DNA of 64,000 nucleotides from NCBI RefSeq assembly GCF_014077505.1, contig NZ_JACGWA010000001.1, positions 186,001-250,000 on the forward strand, written 5' to 3'. The translations under genes and the position numbers were made by a program. Source of the stretch: Colwellia sp. BRX10-3 (lineage in GTDB: Bacteria > Pseudomonadota > Gammaproteobacteria > Enterobacterales > Alteromonadaceae). Positions 5,051 to 63,941 of the stretch are shown here, in pieces (the stretch's first letter is position 1; every line of letters starts with the position of its first letter). Below the pieces are notes generated by a model that made no database searches, was not told the DNA's origin, and saw only the letters and a list, made by a program, of their open reading frames with translations.

Positions 5051-6913
5051 CTAAACCTCGTCTACTGAATGGCCAGAAAGTGCTGTTTTGATAGATGAAT
5101 CCATTCTACGTTCAGCAAATGTGGCGGTGCTATTATTTAATTTCTCTATTGCCGCTTCAACTTCATCGGCATTACCTGTTTGGCTTATTTTTTTCAGCGC
5201 AGAAATTGCGTTATTAATTTCGCTAATTTCAGCTTCATTTAATAAAACGCTATCGGCCAAAAGTGCCGATTGAATCGACTCAATCACGCGTAATGATTCA
5301 ACTTGCTTCTCTTTCAACATACGCACTTGCATATCTTCTTCGGCATTTTCCATGGATTCTTTCAGCATATTAGTGATTTCATCTGCTTCTAAACCAAAGC
5401 TTGGTTTTACAGTGATACTCGACTCAACGCCGGTTGATTTTTCCATCGCCGACACTTCTAACAAACCGTCAGCGTCTACTTTAAAGGTGACACGAATATG
5501 TGCAGCACCTGCAGTCATGGCTGGAATACCCCGAAGTTCAAAACGTGCTAACGAACGACAATCGTCAACTAGCTCCCGTTCGCCTTGCAATACATGCACA
5601 GCCATCGCAGTTTGACCGTCTTTAAAGGTGGTAAATTCTTGCGCTTTTGCCACTGGAATAGTGGTATTGCGTGTAATAACCTTCTCAACTAAGCCGCCCA
5701 TGGTTTCTAGGCCTAGTGATAAAGGAATAACATCAAGCAACAGCATGTCGCTGTCTGGCTTATTACCCGCTAAAATATCAGCTTGAATAGCCGCGCCTAA
5801 AGCAACTACTTTATCAGGGTCAATTGAGGTTAATGGTTGTCGCTTGAAAAAGCCTTCAACCTCATTACGCACTAAAGGTACGCGAGTGGAGCCGCCTACC
5901 ATCACAACTTCAATAATATCAGTAATATCTAGCTCTGCGTCTTTTACCGCACGACGACATGCTCTTAGTGTTTTCTTTACTAGTGGCGCGATAAGTTGTT
6001 CAAATTCAGTACGCGTAAAATTGCCGGTCCACGAGTTATTTTCTGCAAGTGATAGCAAAATTTCAACACTTTCACTGTTTGACAATTGTTCTTTAGCCAA
6101 ACATGCTTGCTGGGTTAATTGTCGTTCCATTGAAGTAGACAAAGGGCGCACTAAACCCGCTTTAGCGATTAGATGCTCAACAAGTATGCCATCAAAATCG
6201 TCACCACCTAGGGCAGAATCACCTCCGGTAGCTAACACTTCAAACACACCTTTATTTAGGCGTAATATTGAAATATCAAAAGTGCCGCCGCCTAAATCAT
6301 AAACTGCCACAACACCTTCTTGGCCACTATCTAAACCATAAGCAACCGCAGCCGCTGTTGGTTCGTTAAGTAAACGTAGCACTTTAACACCAGCTAATTT
6401 TGCCGCGTCTTTTGTACTATGGCGTTGGGCATCATCAAAATAAGCTGGCACGGTAATAACCACACCGGTAAGCTCTCCGCCTAACGATGATTCAGCGCGT
6501 TTTACTAAGGTTTTTAGAATTTCTGCCGACACTTGTACAGGGTTAACATCACCGGTACGAGTGGCTATGGATGGATGGTTTTCATCACCACAAAAGGCAT
6601 AAGGAAGCGATGCATATTTGGTTGTAATATCGCTTTTAGAGCGGCCAATTAGCCGCTTTGCCGATACGATAGTATTTTCAGGGTCGCTCACTGCTAACGC
6701 TTTTGCGTCATGACCGACAAGGATCCCATTATTTTGATAACTGACCACTGACGGTAAAATATCAGCACCATTATCATCAAAAATAGTTTCAGCTAGACCA
6801 CTTTTTACGCTAGCAATTAAAGAGTTTGTCGTACCAAGGTCAATACCAGCGGCAAGTCGATGTGCGTGAGGAACTGTACTTTGCCCTGGTTCAGCGATTT
6901 GTAATAATGCCAT
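5051..6913 (-). CDS. hscA: Fe-S assembly Hsp70 chaperone HscA
   Basis: A specialised Hsp70 that binds the LPPVK motif of IscU and drives cluster transfer by ATP hydrolysis, with HscB as J-partner. The 620 residues begin the ATPase domain with [12 protein letters not shown] near residue 23 and carry [12 protein letters not shown] and VGGSTRVP; the substrate-binding domain follows after about residue 390. Length matches E. coli HscA (616). A 103-base gap with an 11-base inverted repeat separates it from hscB, the longest gap inside this operon. Confidence 0.97.
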
Positions 6914-58904: not shown

Positions 58905-61900
58905 GTGCTTTTGCTTTTTTTCAAAAATAAATTAATTCCCCCATTTCATGCAATGCTTGCTGTTTTAGCTATGCTGATTTTGCTATTTCCTTATAGCGAA
59001 GTGCTAGCTTCAGAAAACAACATTAATCAAAATCCATTGAAATTTAAACGTATTTCAATCGCCGAAGGTTTATCACAGAGCTATGTTTACGATATAACTC
59101 AAGATAACAATGGCTTTATATGGATAGCTACACAAGACGGCTTAAATCGTTACGATGGTAAAAACTTTGTTTATTATCGTCACGACAGTACCGATAATAA
59201 ATCAATTGCTAATAACATTATTAGAAAAATTTTTATCGATAGCAAAAATGTACTCTGGGTTGGTACAAATAAAGGGCTAAGCCGATATAACGAATCATTA
59301 GATAACTTTGATAACTTCCTCAATCAAACTAACGACAGTAACTCCCTGAAAGACAATGAAATTTGGGATATCTATCAAGACAAACAAAATGACATTTGGG
59401 TATCAACTAAAGAAGGTCTACATAAATTCGACAGCGAAAATAAGAATTTCTCTAGGATACGAATTCGTGGATTTGATACTGCCTTAAAAGAAATTAAAAC
59501 TATTTTTCAAGATGAAAAAGGTAATTATTGGCTTGGTACTTATGATAAAGGTATATACTTGGCAAACAGTACACTGTCATTTTTAGTACCGCTATCTGGT
59601 GAAAACAAGTGGAATCTATCACTTAACGCTACCAGCCTTTATGACCTAAAGACTATTGATAATCAATATTGGTTAGCTACAGATAATGGCTTGTTTGTTA
59701 TTTCTCAAGATTACAAAATTAAAAAGCATTACTCCTCTGACTCAGAAAATGTAGATGATAAATTATTATCTAATAATGTGAGGTCTATCGCATTATTAGA
59801 TGAATCGATGGTTTGGCTTGGCACGCTAAATGGGCTAAATATTATCAACTTGCTCTCTGGAGATATAGACGCTTATCAAACTGTGCAGCATAAAAGTGCT
59901 ATTTCAAATAACTATATATTAAAATTATTTAAAGACAGTGCGGATAATATTTGGATCGGAACTAACGGCAGTGGCATCAATACCTTTAACAGTTTACAGT
60001 TAAAAATTAGACATGGTTTATTTAGTTATGATGAAATACCTAGTGCCGTATATGCGTTTGCTGAATCTAAAGATGGAAGGATCTGGTTTGCAACAGATAA
60101 TGGAAAACTAAGCTACACAAACTCAGATGAAAAAATAGTTCATCTAAAAATTGGCAACAAGACAGCAATTTCTCACTTAATGATAGACGATCAAGATAAT
60201 TTTTGGTTACAGGCTGAACCGGAAAGTCCTAATAAACCTGGAAGTCTCTATTACTTTGATACTAAGACTTTAACATTAATTGAGAATAAGGCATGGGGAC
60301 TCAACTTATCTCATACCAAATACAGTCAATTGTTTTTGATAGAAAATAAAATTTGGTTTATTGATAACGAAATGCAATTAGCATCTTTTGACATTAAAAC
60401 CAATCAATTTGAAATTTATGAACAAGAGAATGGTAGCCTATTTACTACCTTAAAATACGACAATAACAACACAATATGGCTCTCCACAAGCAGAGGTGAA
60501 ATATTAACCTTTAATGTATCAAAACTTGATTTTTCAAATAATTTATATTTATTATCGAATAGCAACGTATTTGGGGAAATATCTACTATTTCATTGTCCA
60601 ATGAATGGATTTGGTTAGGTTCACAACTCAACGGTTTAGCATTAATAAACAAAAACAATAATACTAATTTGTTGTTCAACGAAAAAAATGGTCTTAGTAA
60701 TAATTTCATTGCGGACATAGTAATTGATTCTACAGGTAAAGGTTGGCTTTCAACGAATATCGGCATTAACTCAGTTGATCCTAAAAATAAAATAGTAAAA
60801 TCTTACAATAAAGATATGCTATTAAGTGACAATGAGTATATTAGCGATAGTTCTATACTAACTTCTGCTGATACAATTTTTTTTGGAGGAATAAATGGTT
60901 TCCATACCTTCATTCCTCAAGAGATTTCTCGCATTGGACAACTGACACCTACTCCCACTATTTCTAATATACTCATAGCGAACAAAGAGGTTCCTGTTGC
61001 GACCACTTTGCACTCTAATATAACCGATAAAGAGTTTTATTTAGACAAATCCCCTAATCATTTAACTACTCTTACGCTGAAGCACACACAGTCCCAATTT
61101 AGCATTGAATTTATTACCCCTAATACAAAGTTACCGAACCAGCTAAACTATCGATACCGTTTAATTGGATTAGAAGATCAATGGATAGATTCTGGTAAAA
61201 ATAATCAAAGAGCAACTTACACTAATTTAAACTCTGGCGATTATACTTTTGAAGTACTGGCCTACGATTTACAAAACAATCAAGAAAGTAAAATAAAATC
61301 GCTCAATATCACCATAATGCCGCCATGGTGGTTATCAACTAGCGCGCTATTAGTTTATAGCCTGATTACACTGTTAATATTTGCCTATATCATGCAACAG
61401 ATGCGTCATAAGCGTTTATATCATTTACAAATAAAGTTAAGTGAAGAACGTCTTAAGTTATCACTTTGGGGTAGCGGTGATGAAATGTGGGATTGGAACA
61501 TTAAAAGTGGAAAAATATTCCGATCAAATATATGGGGAATTTTAGAATTTCCACAAGACGGCAGACGTAATGTTGGCAAAGATGAAACCAACATCCATCA
61601 ACACGATATCCCGCGGGTACGAGAGGCTTTAAACCAACATTTTGACGACAGCAACGAACATTTTGAAGCCACGTATCGTGTTAAAGATAAAGACGAAAAA
61701 TGGATTTGGGTGCTCGATCGCGGTAAAATTGTCGAACGAGATGAAAAAAACAAACCTAGCCGAATGACAGGTACCTTAAAAGATATTAGTCAAATCAAAC
61801 GTGCAGATGAACGTTTAAAGCTTTTTGCTAAATGTATCGAAAACATTTCAGACGCGATTGTTATTTATGACCGTCAATTTACTGTTGTTGATGTTAATAA

Positions 61901-63494
61901 AGCATTTCAAAGCATTACGGGCAGAACTAAGTTACAAATGCGTGGGACTTTGCTTAAATTTGAACAATACCCCGATAGCTTTAACCAAAATGTTAAAAAA
62001 CATTTAATTACCAAAGGTAGTTGGCACGGCGAAATAGAAAATACCCGTGACAATGGCGATATTTATTTAACCGATTTAAATATTGATATCATTCGTGACG
62101 AAAATAACAATATCTCGCACTTTGTAGGCGTTTTCTCTGATATAACTAAGCGGAAACAAACAGAAGCAGAATTAAGAAAGCTCGCTAATACCGATACCTT
62201 AACTGGCTTGCCTAATCGGGCTTATTTTCAAGCTAATCAACAAAAATTAGTTAACAGTAAAATTCCGCATGCTTTGCTGGTGTTTGATTTAGATAACTTT
62301 AAAAAAGTGAATGATTCTTTAGGGCACGAAGTCGGCGATGTATTGCTTTGTAAAGTTGCCGAACGCATTAATAGTTTAGGAAGAAATCAAGATACCGTTT
62401 ATCGTTTAGGCGGTGATGAATTTAGTTTAATTATTGAAAATACCAATGATATTCATACCATCACCACAATTGGCAAACAAGTTTTAAAGTCTATTGCGCT
62501 ACCACTGAGGCTTAAAAGCCAGGAAATTGTGCTTTATAGTAGTATTGGCATCGTACTCTACCCTGAAGATGGTAAAAGCCCACAAGAGCTTCTTAAAAAT
62601 GCCGATACGGCTATGTATCACGCTAAAAACACTGGTGGTAATAAATACCAGTTTTTCAGCGATTCAATGAATAAAACCGCGGTAAAGCGCCTACAAATAG
62701 AAAGCTTAATCAGACACGGTTTAAAAGAAGATTTATTTTCGGTTTTTTATCAGCCAAAAATCGAGATCGCGACAGGAAAAATAGCAGGAATGGAAGCCTT
62801 AGTGCGCTTTGAAACACCCAGAAAAGGCATCATTAGTCCTGTAGTATTTATCCCGGTCTCAGAAGAGACTGGGCAAATTATTGATATTGGTGAAGTCGTT
62901 TTACGCAAGGCCTGTATTGCTACCAAAAAGTGGGTTGATGCTGGACTGTTTGACGGCCGTGTAGCGGTAAACCTTTCTGCAGTTCAGTTCACACAACCTA
63001 ACCTAGTAGCAATGATTGCCGATGCCTTAAAAGAAAGTGCTTTACCGGCAAAATATTTAGAGTTAGAAATAACTGAAGGTACTGTAATGGATTCGCCACA
63101 AAAAGCGATCGATACCATGCTACAAATTCGTGCGATGGGTATCCATTTATCGCTAGATGATTTTGGTACCGGTTATTCATCACTCGCATACTTGAAAAAA
63201 TTCCCGCTAAATACCCTAAAAATAGACAAAGCCTTTGTTGATGATATTGAAACCTCTGAGCAGGGCCGAAACATGGTCGCGACTATAGTCACCATCGCGC
63301 ATAACTTAGGTATGCAAGTAGTCGCAGAGGGTGTTGAAACCAATCAACAACTCAGTTTTCTTTCAGGCTTACGCTGTGAGCAATTACAAGGTTACCTTTA
63401 TAGCAAACCACTACCTGTAGGCGACTTCCAAAAATACTTACTTTCCTTTCAAATCACCAATAAATCGACTTCGTTTGGAAATAATTCAATCTAA
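58905..63494 (+). CDS. Membrane sensor: periplasmic propeller, triple-Tyr domain, PAS-PAS-GGDEF-EAL
   Basis: A 1529-residue one-piece signalling protein. GTG start behind AAAAGG. A signal peptide (to about residue 36, ending VLA) leads to about 13 two-component-regulator-propeller repeats (45-690; for example IWIATQDGLNRYDG), which fold as beta-propellers, then a triple-Tyr domain (about 745-790; LNYRYRLIGLEDQW), one membrane helix (about 807-832), two PAS domains (848-965, 971-1088), GGDEF (motif at 1169-1173, with I-site RNQD five residues before) and EAL (EAL at 1297-1299; ELEITEG, DDFGTG, AEGVET and QGYLYSKP intact). It should sense a periplasmic ligand, perhaps a glycan as in Bacteroidetes sensors, and set cyclic-di-GMP. 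Ligand and net activity are unknown. Confidence 0.92.
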   Translation: MLLLFFKNKLIPPFHAMLAVLAMLILLFPYSEVLASENNINQNPLKFKRISIAEGLSQSYVYDITQDNNGFIWIATQDGLNRYDGKNFVYYRHDSTDNKSIANNIIRKIFIDSKNVLWVGTNKGLSRYNESLDNFDNFLNQTNDSNSLKDNEIWDIYQDKQNDIWVSTKEGLHKFDSENKNFSRIRIRGFDTALKEIKTIFQDEKGNYWLGTYDKGIYLANSTLSFLVPLSGENKWNLSLNATSLYDLKTIDNQYWLATDNGLFVISQDYKIKKHYSSDSENVDDKLLSNNVRSIALLDESMVWLGTLNGLNIINLLSGDIDAYQTVQHKSAISNNYILKLFKDSADNIWIGTNGSGINTFNSLQLKIRHGLFSYDEIPSAVYAFAESKDGRIWFATDNGKLSYTNSDEKIVHLKIGNKTAISHLMIDDQDNFWLQAEPESPNKPGSLYYFDTKTLTLIENKAWGLNLSHTKYSQLFLIENKIWFIDNEMQLASFDIKTNQFEIYEQENGSLFTTLKYDNNNTIWLSTSRGEILTFNVSKLDFSNNLYLLSNSNVFGEISTISLSNEWIWLGSQLNGLALINKNNNTNLLFNEKNGLSNNFIADIVIDSTGKGWLSTNIGINSVDPKNKIVKSYNKDMLLSDNEYISDSSILTSADTIFFGGINGFHTFIPQEISRIGQLTPTPTISNILIANKEVPVATTLHSNITDKEFYLDKSPNHLTTLTLKHTQSQFSIEFITPNTKLPNQLNYRYRLIGLEDQWIDSGKNNQRATYTNLNSGDYTFEVLAYDLQNNQESKIKSLNITIMPPWWLSTSALLVYSLITLLIFAYIMQQMRHKRLYHLQIKLSEERLKLSLWGSGDEMWDWNIKSGKIFRSNIWGILEFPQDGRRNVGKDETNIHQHDIPRVREALNQHFDDSNEHFEATYRVKDKDEKWIWVLDRGKIVERDEKNKPSRMTGTLKDISQIKRADERLKLFAKCIENISDAIVIYDRQFTVVDVNKAFQSITGRTKLQMRGTLLKFEQYPDSFNQNVKKHLITKGSWHGEIENTRDNGDIYLTDLNIDIIRDENNNISHFVGVFSDITKRKQTEAELRKLANTDTLTGLPNRAYFQANQQKLVNSKIPHALLVFDLDNFKKVNDSLGHEVGDVLLCKVAERINSLGRNQDTVYRLGGDEFSLIIENTNDIHTITTIGKQVLKSIALPLRLKSQEIVLYSSIGIVLYPEDGKSPQELLKNADTAMYHAKNTGGNKYQFFSDSMNKTAVKRLQIESLIRHGLKEDLFSVFYQPKIEIATGKIAGMEALVRFETPRKGIISPVVFIPVSEETGQIIDIGEVVLRKACIATKKWVDAGLFDGRVAVNLSAVQFTQPNLVAMIADALKESALPAKYLELEITEGTVMDSPQKAIDTMLQIRAMGIHLSLDDFGTGYSSLAYLKKFPLNTLKIDKAFVDDIETSEQGRNMVATIVTIAHNLGMQVVAEGVETNQQLSFLSGLRCEQLQGYLYSKPLPVGDFQKYLLSFQITNKSTSFGNNSI

Positions 63495-63521: not shown

Positions 63522-63574
63522 AACTCCACTGTAAAAAACACGCTAACAGCCTTGTAAATCAAGGACTTTATCAT

Positions 63575-63590
63575 TGGCACGATTCTCGCT
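63575..63590 (+). promoter_or_regulatory. Sigma-54-type promoter
   Basis: TGGCACGATTCTCGCT matches the sigma-54 consensus TGGCACG-N4-TTGCW with one change (TCGC for TTGC). The invariant GG (63576-63577) and GC (63588-63589) are exactly 10 bases apart. Transcription would begin near 63600, about 30 bases before the next ATG. An inverted repeat CCTTG-N5-CAAGG lies upstream at 63550-63564. Confidence 0.75.
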
Positions 63591-63630
63591 TTACCCTTAT
63601 TGAATTTAACTTAATAAAAAAGGGTATACC

Positions 63631-63828
63631 ATGCTTAGTTCTCTAATTCTTTCTTTTGCTATGTCAGCAACTCCAACACCAGTAATTAATAATGAAGCTT
63701 TTATAATCGAAGAAGTCGGAACTCGTCGTAACGACATTCGTATTGGAACTCGTCGTAACGACATTCGTATTGGAACTCGTCGTAACGACATTCGTATCGA
63801 TACTAGTAGTAACGAAATTAGCATCTAG
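63631..63828 (+). CDS. Small protein with four C-terminal 9-residue tandem repeats
   Basis: I do not recognise this family. The 65 residues start behind AAAAAAGGG. Residues 1-12 are mildly hydrophobic without an N-terminal positive charge (MLSSLILSFAMS), 13-29 form a linker ending FIIEEV, and 30-65 are exactly four units: GTRRNDIRI three times, then DTSSNEISI. The protein stops right at the end of the last unit. Positions 2 (Thr), 5 (Asn), 6 (acidic), 7 and 9 (Ile) are kept in all four units, while Arg changes to Ser. A leader-plus-repeated-core layout, as in some ribosomally made modified peptides, or a short beta-rich repeat protein are both possible. A sigma-54-type promoter precedes it. 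Confidence 0.65.
   Translation: MLSSLILSFAMSATPTPVINNEAFIIEEVGTRRNDIRIGTRRNDIRIGTRRNDIRIDTSSNEISI
63718..63825 (+). repeat. Four tandem 27-base coding repeats
   Basis: Units at 63718, 63745, 63772 and 63799. Units 1 and 2 are identical, unit 3 differs in its last base only, and unit 4 is diverged but keeps length and key codons. This points to recent duplication of one unit next to an older one. Confidence 0.97.
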
Positions 63829-63836
63829 GGGGCTTT

Positions 63837-63941
63837 ATGATTAACTTAATTAAAGCATTATTTATTACTGAAAAGACTGAAAACACTATTGCTGCAAGCA
63901 TCGAAATTAAAGAGATGCCAGCAAGCACTTGGTGGAATTAA
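63837..63941 (+). CDS. 34-residue small protein downstream of the repeat protein
   Basis: No family recognised. ATG 63837 has GGGG seven bases upstream and follows the repeat-protein stop by eight bases, so the two are likely co-transcribed. The peptide starts MINLIKALFITEK, has an acidic-polar middle (TENTIAASIEIKE) and ends MPASTWWN. The strong ribosome site and tight spacing support translation; the short length limits certainty. Confidence 0.5.
   Translation: MINLIKALFITEKTENTIAASIEIKEMPASTWWN

Follow-up and report, generated by a model that had tools for sequence, protein, structure and literature searches.

A 64,000-nt stretch of the 3.87-Mb genome of Colwellia sp. BRX10-3 (genome G000), referred to here as the window, carries near its end a 65-residue ORF composed of a leader and four nine-residue units. 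This locus raises the question of what such a repeated protein does and which partner it acts with.

The repeated gene and its promoter

The ORF (positions 63631 to 63828, forward strand) encodes a putative peptide precursor. Its first 29 residues (63631 to 63717, forward strand) form a leader with a hydrophobic start, MLSSLILSFAMSATP, and an acidic end, IIEEV. The leader is followed on the same strand by three core units, GTRRNDIRI, of 27 nt each (63718 to 63798) and by a diverged C-terminal unit, DTSSNEISI (63799 to 63825), with similar terminal units present in genomes G007 and G012. The preliminary description was right that the ORF consists of a leader and four units and stops exactly at the last one. 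It counted two Arg replaced by Ser in that last unit, where there are in fact three (unit positions 3, 4, and 8), and it took unit positions 5 (Asn) and 6 (acidic) to be kept, which they are not in relatives. Precursor homologues are present in all 16 other Colwellia genomes, and the window ORF is therefore not a chance one; the same comparison between species bears out that it is a real gene whose frame is kept while the repeat number varies. Only one match to the precursor was found within its own genome, and neither the precursor nor P34, the second small protein of the operon, reaches the cut-off of any Pfam or NCBIfam family. In other families, signal-peptide-like leaders, judged by eye and by hydrophobicity, take the leader's place, and the precursor is probably exported via its hydrophobic leader.

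In the 17 Colwellia genomes, the cores follow the pattern GT[RK][RKP]xx[VI]RI and occur in 1 to 8 full copies. Other genera of the same family have different repeated cores (ATRRGMIRI, GRKGIRI, AKGRGVKV, SQKRRESRI, GTTKVRI, ANNRIRI, and others), and some relatives carry a single C-terminal core (TGRRSVRI or WKPRSVRI). Elsewhere in the order, family f16 has cores such as WRKIDI together with classical-looking signal peptides, family f20 has RIPVRF, RVIIRY, and others, and family f6 has TAGIPAVKVL in ten copies. Core diversity thus spans GTRRNDIRI to ALKPGGGIGF and TAGIPAVKVL, with 67 distinct cores among 74 genomes (one hand-read core per genome), and the copy number per precursor ranges from 1 to at least 10. 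The last core residue is I, V, L, F, or M in 71 of the 74, with R or K just before it in 68, and the precursor ends exactly with a core in 61 of 66 cases, a count that leaves out five broken or masked arrays and others unmatched by the script. Among the copies within 42 arrays, codon variants comprise 266 synonymous versus 2 nonsynonymous changes, counted in copies with up to two mismatches and without the window's last unit and other decayed copies; random single-base changes in the copies would be 73% nonsynonymous. The spacers in 27 arrays, in which cores were located by exact match, show 57 synonymous versus 72 nonsynonymous variants. Judged from these codons, the sameness of the cores within a gene is a product of strong selection. 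In draft genomes, repeat arrays (L100, L115, L117, L118, and L130) appear as contig ends or runs of N, and such precursors are therefore easily lost in assembly and annotation.

The sigma-54 consensus is GG-N10-GC at -24/-12. A promoter of this type, TTGGCACGATTCTCGCT (63574 to 63590, forward strand), has its GG at 63576-63577 and its GC at 63588-63589, and the precursor ATG (63631) lies 55 nt past the GG. The near-consensus site reported in the preliminary description about 55 bases before the ATG is therefore confirmed, and it recurs upstream of the precursors of relatives. A GG-N10-GC element is present within 160 nt upstream in 73 of 74 scored precursors, and 69 of the 73 score at least 10 out of 13 against the consensus. 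The remaining precursor, that of G109, has a site scoring 11 upstream of its correct start codon, which makes 74 of 74, and all 13 precursors beyond this set also have a sigma-54-type site (87/87 in total). In mononucleotide shuffles, any GG-N10-GC occurred in 6%, and a score of at least 10 occurred in 0 of 1,480. On this conservation, the promoter call for the precursor is strongly supported, and dependence on RpoN is predicted. Just 5' of the -24 element lies an inverted repeat, CCTTGTAAATCAAGG (63550 to 63564, strand not assigned), which is weak in the window (arm of 5 nt; shuffles gave a mean of 4.4 and a maximum of 7). In an arm comparison across 27 loci, eight have arms of 9 to 16 nt that end 0 to 12 nt before the -24 element, and the arm sequences vary between species. 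The inverted repeat may serve to terminate the receptor mRNA or act as an operator.

The neighboring receptor and the conservation of the pair

Directly ahead of the precursor, on the same strand, lies the gene of a candidate receptor of 1,529 residues (58905 to 63494), a Reg_prop/Y_Y_Y/PAS/GGDEF/EAL protein according to Pfam, AlphaFold2, and Foldseek. It comprises, in order, an N-terminal hydrophobic segment, two Reg_prop propellers, a Y_Y_Y domain, a transmembrane (TM) helix at about residues 812 to 838, two PAS domains, a GGDEF domain (1094 to 1247), and an EAL domain (1269 to 1502), and the propellers and the Y_Y_Y domain are taken as periplasmic. The AlphaFold2 model contains the double propeller, the Y_Y_Y domain, and the TM helix (mean pLDDT, 86.6; pTM, 0.81). 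The closest solved structure found by Foldseek is BT4663 (PDB 4a2l; E value, 5e-54), a Bacteroides hybrid two-component sensor with a homologous periplasmic domain of two seven-bladed propellers and Y_Y_Y; the TM helix is present in the window receptor as well. The GGDEF and EAL motifs of the window receptor are intact, and in 95 aligned receptors GGDEF is present in 87 and E-A-L in 92, with four f20 receptors that have precursors carrying GGDEY. According to excerpts of the published structural work, the ligands of BT4663 are disaccharides, bound at the entry sides of its propellers, and its output is of the kinase/regulator type, whereas the window receptor has a GGDEF-EAL output and a suspected peptide ligand (PMC5121618). 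Xanthomonas GdpX2 and GdpX3 also have Reg_prop/Y_Y_Y sensor domains joined to c-di-GMP enzymes; excerpts of the report on them give the sensor function as unknown and mention no peptide gene (PMC6637768).

The receptor and the precursor are both present in all 17 Colwellia genomes, and 69 of the 147 genomes of the same family have a receptor orthologue. Of these, 66 loci were read together with 11 more Colwellia loci, and a precursor was seen in 75 of the 77; in G114 and G156, counted as misses, the contig ends before a precursor could be seen. Among four more distant orthologues of the family, three (g48) carry leader and promoter ahead of a tail that has diverged, and G018 (L258) has no precursor. 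A precursor therefore lies directly behind the receptor in 78 of 81 loci of the family, two of the misses being at contig ends and one being real; G087, G118, and G144, in which contigs end, were left out of the locus counts. In three other families of the order, the precursor is present in 10 of 11 loci (f16, 5/5; f20, 4/5, the miss being G054; f6, 1/1). It is absent behind the receptor orthologues of three further families (0/7), namely, f7 (0/5, L269 to L273), where a transketolase gene lies directly behind the receptor, f4 (0/1, G038), and f13 (0/1, G193, a doubtful orthologue whose protein lacks the EAL motif). The receptors of f7 and G018 either have lost the precursor or have a different ligand. 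Of the 36 genomes with matches in the wider search, G192, G211, G230, and G312 were left out, and the matches in G046 and G319 and the second match in G187 are not GGDEF-EAL proteins and were not counted. Among 274 genomes searched for the receptor in other orders of the class, only G000 and G017, both of its own family, match at 1e-110, and a one-pattern contig scan gave, among the matches listed, mostly sensors of other phyla. Five paralogous Reg_prop GGDEF-EAL genes have no precursor behind them. In f16, the gene behind the pair is anmK and not fadJ (4/4 scanned; the fifth contig ends). A mere frozen gene order was considered as an explanation for the adjacency and is weakened by this changed flank, next to which the pair stays, and by the five paralogues.

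The second small protein of the operon, P34 (34 residues; MINLIKALFITEKTENTIAASIEIKEMPASTWWN; 63837 to 63941, forward strand), is conserved in relatives and was absent from the preliminary description. It starts eight bases past the precursor stop codon, has an amphipathic-looking start and a conserved ...IEIKEMPASTWWN end, and keeps the same residue at 14 of its 34 positions throughout the 15 sequences compared. P34 was found in 45 of the 147 genomes of the family (E values up to 1.1e-5), all 45 of them receptor positive and belonging to Colwellia-like genera; in a search of 295 genomes of the order, it was found in this family only (7 genomes; E values up to 0.001). A WW-ending relative was recognized by eye in f20 and f6, none was seen in MLKAYA-type genera or in f16, and none of 209 matches to the P34 pattern in viral contigs is a relative. 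Of the four g76 genomes read, three carry two tandem copies. Differences between the peptide classes are not mirrored in P34. In G038 (L274), a 59-residue ORF behind the receptor relative, at a locus without a repeat precursor, ends in ...LNTLEAHNAEEWFV and is faintly P34-like.

Upstream of the receptor lies an M16 peptidase gene. Downstream come a small membrane protein gene on the opposite strand and then fadJ- and fadI-type genes, and the 16 other Colwellia genomes all share this gene order as far as their contigs reach. The small membrane protein between P34 and fadJ, a conserved protein of 67 residues without a Pfam family, is encoded at positions 6080 to 6283 of L002, beyond the window. 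By Pfam, the ten larger genes in the 14 kb downstream comprise those for fatty acid oxidation (fadJ and fadI types), MoxR/DUF58/VWA/BatD genes, a sigma-70-type factor, and DUF3379. No ATP-grasp, radical SAM, YcaO, peptidase, or exporter gene is among these ten, and no ATP-grasp ligase is found in the two upstream genes either. The preliminary description had named ordinary housekeeping genes downstream as a finding that would tell against its reading; such genes are indeed what follows, and they refute only the version that involves a modifying enzyme.

Joint variation of core and sensor

In Colwellia, the receptor is hypervariable at residues of about 280 to 760, where two allele classes can be told apart; the allelic sensor part as a whole, the class of which matches the peptide core, covers residues of about 270 to 770 (59712 to 61214, forward strand). 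Among the long stretches, residues 401 to 560 in the second propeller vary the most, and six receptor positions (318, 380, 409, 613, 645, and 763) split the classes almost strictly. The class I genomes (G000, G001, G005, G008, G012, and G014) have no Gln at core position 6, and the 11 class II genomes always have Gln there. This Q/non-Q split, which was spotted in the same data and then tested, agrees with the sensor allele class in 17 of 17 Colwellia genomes. Mean identities within class I, within class II, and between classes are 0.776, 0.632, and 0.595 for the whole sensor, 0.925, 0.919, and 0.916 for the cytoplasmic half, and 0.832, 0.776, and 0.793 for the M16 peptidase.

On a tree of the variable sensor, class changes once and forms one clade with full support. 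On a tree of M16 plus the cytoplasmic half, it changes four times (105 to 118 of 500 shuffles were as low), and a single clade is rejected (AU test; p, 1.8e-58). Core positions 3 to 7 together require 22 parsimony changes on the variable-sensor tree, a count as low as this being reached in 0 of 500 shuffles. The corresponding counts are 25 for a tree of first-propeller residues 41 to 260 (45/500), 27 for the cytoplasmic tree (267/500), 28 for the M16 tree (388/500), and 27 for the tree of M16 plus the cytoplasmic half (257/500). In Colwellia, the core tracks the hypervariable periplasmic segment of the receptor, and the cytoplasmic half and the flanking gene are at chance level. The independent class switches in Colwellia number only four, all four concordant (sign test; p, 0.125). 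A partial Mantel test of core against sensor in Colwellia gave r of 0.227 (p, 0.010) with M16 as the control and r of 0.106 (p, 0.147; not significant) with the cytoplasmic half as the control. In 55 non-Colwellia genomes, a partial Mantel test with the cytoplasmic half as the control shows the core to be correlated with the variable sensor (r, 0.251; p, 0.0005), and the reverse test gave 0.058 (p, 0.19). Outside Colwellia, the first propeller (residues 41 to 260) contributes about equally (core against first propeller given the variable segment: r, 0.143; p, 0.039; core against the variable segment given the first propeller: r, 0.144; p, 0.030).

Two loci are mosaic. G012 is 92 to 98% identical to its sister G011 over M16 and 90 to 97% identical over the cytoplasmic half of the receptor, whereas a sensor stretch of about 2.4 kb is 91 to 97% identical to G000 and down to 56% identical to G011. 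Its core has Asn at position 5 and an acidic residue at position 6 in common with the G000 core. Its terminal unit is G000-like, which is not diagnostic because class II G007 has a similar one. The precursor DNA of G012 has identities of 0.82 to G011 and 0.83 to G000, and mutation instead of exchange may account for the change in its peptide. In G014, the sensor has an identity of up to 0.89 to G008 versus down to 0.54 to its sister G009, and the precursor stretch has 0.87 to G008 versus 0.79 to G009, with most flanking stretches nearer to G009. In both pairs of sister species, the sensor segment and the peptide type differ, and the conserved receptor half between them did not move.

Candidate ligand, alternatives, and related systems

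At this locus, a precursor that is probably exported carries cores that are identical within one gene, differ from species to species, and vary in a matched way with the outer part of a single receptor; the simplest account of this combination is a ligand and its receptor. The topology, with signal-peptide-like leaders and a sensor domain before the TM helix, fits the same reading. We consider it likely that the neighboring GGDEF-EAL receptor has the exported multi-copy peptide as its cognate ligand, the two forming pherotype-like matched pairs. The ORF would encode several copies of a short signal peptide (GTRRNDIRI in the window) within one precursor, whose synthesis RpoN would control from a separate promoter known by its sequence conservation; the hydrophobic leader would export the precursor, and proteases would free the cores. 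As suggested by the co-variation, the mature peptide may bind the hypervariable part of the periplasmic double propeller, and the bound peptide would set the c-di-GMP-making or -degrading output predicted from the intact motifs. Peptide and receptor alleles would change jointly, with species, even sister species, carrying different matched pairs, and the peptide would either leave the cell as a pheromone or act in the producer's own periplasm. A more far-reaching proposal, to which we give slightly less than even weight, is a peptide pheromone of Gram-negative bacteria: RpoN-driven precursors would free identical, lineage-specific peptides, the double-propeller GGDEF-EAL receptor would bind them, and cells of the same type would jointly adjust c-di-GMP and their surface or biofilm lifestyle, with alleles exchanged between species as a matched set despite the 2 kb of conserved receptor sequence in between. 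Points against a ligand are the disaccharides bound by BT4663, the orthologues without a precursor in f7, G018, G038, and G193, and the possibility of a folded beta-repeat.

The same adjacency and co-variation would be expected if the exported repeat protein, cleaved or not, were a built-in, constitutive subunit of the receptor, for example, one that adds beta strands to the propellers, and carried no information from cell to cell; the two would then co-evolve as the parts of any tight complex do. The V-R-I ends of the cores look strand forming, and sensing could stay within the periplasm. However, the separate sigma-54-type promoter, the copy number of 1 to at least 10, and the almost complete identity of the copies point to a unit that is dosed and released and not to a fixed subunit, and sister species with different types fit signaling better; we therefore regard such a subunit as unlikely. 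It is quite improbable that a structural or protective repeat protein (amyloid, beta-repeat, ice-binding, or antimicrobial) stands beside a stable receptor gene by chance. The repeats, the cold marine genus, and the mostly basic cores would suit such a protein, and the Pfam cut-off was reached by two of nine precursors scanned: the long array of G001 matches the beta-rich DUF4097 'toastrack' (37.4 bits versus 22.9) and the G166 precursor matches DUF6470 (30.2 versus 28.9). The NCBIfam cut-off was reached by one of four (G157, POMP_repeat; 17.4 versus 15). Since each of these three arrays, all from one precursor family, matches a different model, the matches look repeat driven, and they leave room for a folded beta-repeat protein. 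However, four further arrays give no DUF4097 match, some cores, such as GGGIGF, have no charge runs, the core sequence tracks the sensor allele and not the species, the adjacency outlasts a change of the gene behind, and relatives with a single core (...TGRRSVRI*, ...WKPRSVRI*) exclude a repeat-dependent fold. Amyloid or ice-binding repeats were dropped as candidates on account of these single-core relatives. A c-di-GMP-binding RxxxR motif in the cores was also considered and dropped, since several cores lack it (GGGIGF, TAGIPAVKVL) and the leaders look exported.

Graspetides have in every core an acidic side chain and Ser/Thr/Lys as ring partners, with an ATP-grasp ligase encoded nearby. Of the preliminary proposal of a multi-core modified peptide, the leader with repeated cores stands, and the omega-ester reading is contradicted by core composition and neighborhood: the graspetide idea fails because 60 of the 74 cores (including 11 of 17 in Colwellia) lack Asp/Glu. 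A ribosomally synthesized and modified peptide of this or a similar type, with its enzyme encoded elsewhere, would suit the leader, the repeated cores, and P34 as a second small peptide in the operon, but it is very improbable given those cores, the 16 of 74 without Ser/Thr, the great variety of cores (GTRRNDIRI, ALKPGGGIGF, TAGIPAVKVL), and the ten larger genes of the downstream 14 kb, among which no such enzyme is found.

In the pherotype systems of Gram-positive bacteria, such as streptococcal ComC/ComD and staphylococcal Agr, a leader-bearing precursor is encoded beside the receptor gene, and matched classes of peptide and outer-receptor alleles move between lineages. The pair described here resembles them in the short peptide from a leader-bearing precursor adjoining a receptor gene and in the matched allele classes of peptide and outer receptor, and here, too, peptide and sensor vary jointly apart from the genome background. 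It differs in its Gram-negative host, in the several identical copies per precursor, in the sigma-54-type promoter, and in the receptor, which is a double-propeller GGDEF-EAL protein here and a histidine kinase with a polytopic sensor there. No homologues of the Com/Agr precursors or receptor kinases were seen in domain, Pfam, and NCBIfam scans of the window proteins. Yeast pheromone precursors (alpha-factor and P-factor) contain tandem identical units and spacers, from which proteases release a peptide with a specific receptor. The tandem identical units split by spacers are shared with the bacterial precursors; the yeast precursors use a eukaryotic secretory pathway, and the likeness is one of analogy and not of homology. 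Excerpts of the pertinent literature cover the Gram-positive pherotypes (PMC2751782, PMC4072589) and the yeast mating-pheromone precursors (PMC6342294). No description of this peptide-receptor pair was found in the literature searched, outside which lay most subscription papers and all preprints, and the pair suggests an undescribed peptide-receptor signaling system in marine bacteria.

To our knowledge, ligands are known for only a minority of c-di-GMP enzymes. Small molecules are regarded as the main signals of Gram-negative bacteria, as stated in an excerpt of one publication (PMC5388746). The receptors described here are a c-di-GMP receptor group, found in several families of one order, in which each has a candidate ligand encoded alongside, with dozens of natural combinations. 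Synthetic peptides of about 6 to 10 residues allow the ligand question to be tested directly, and the combinations offer a ready-made natural series in which to follow the evolution and exchange of receptor specificity.
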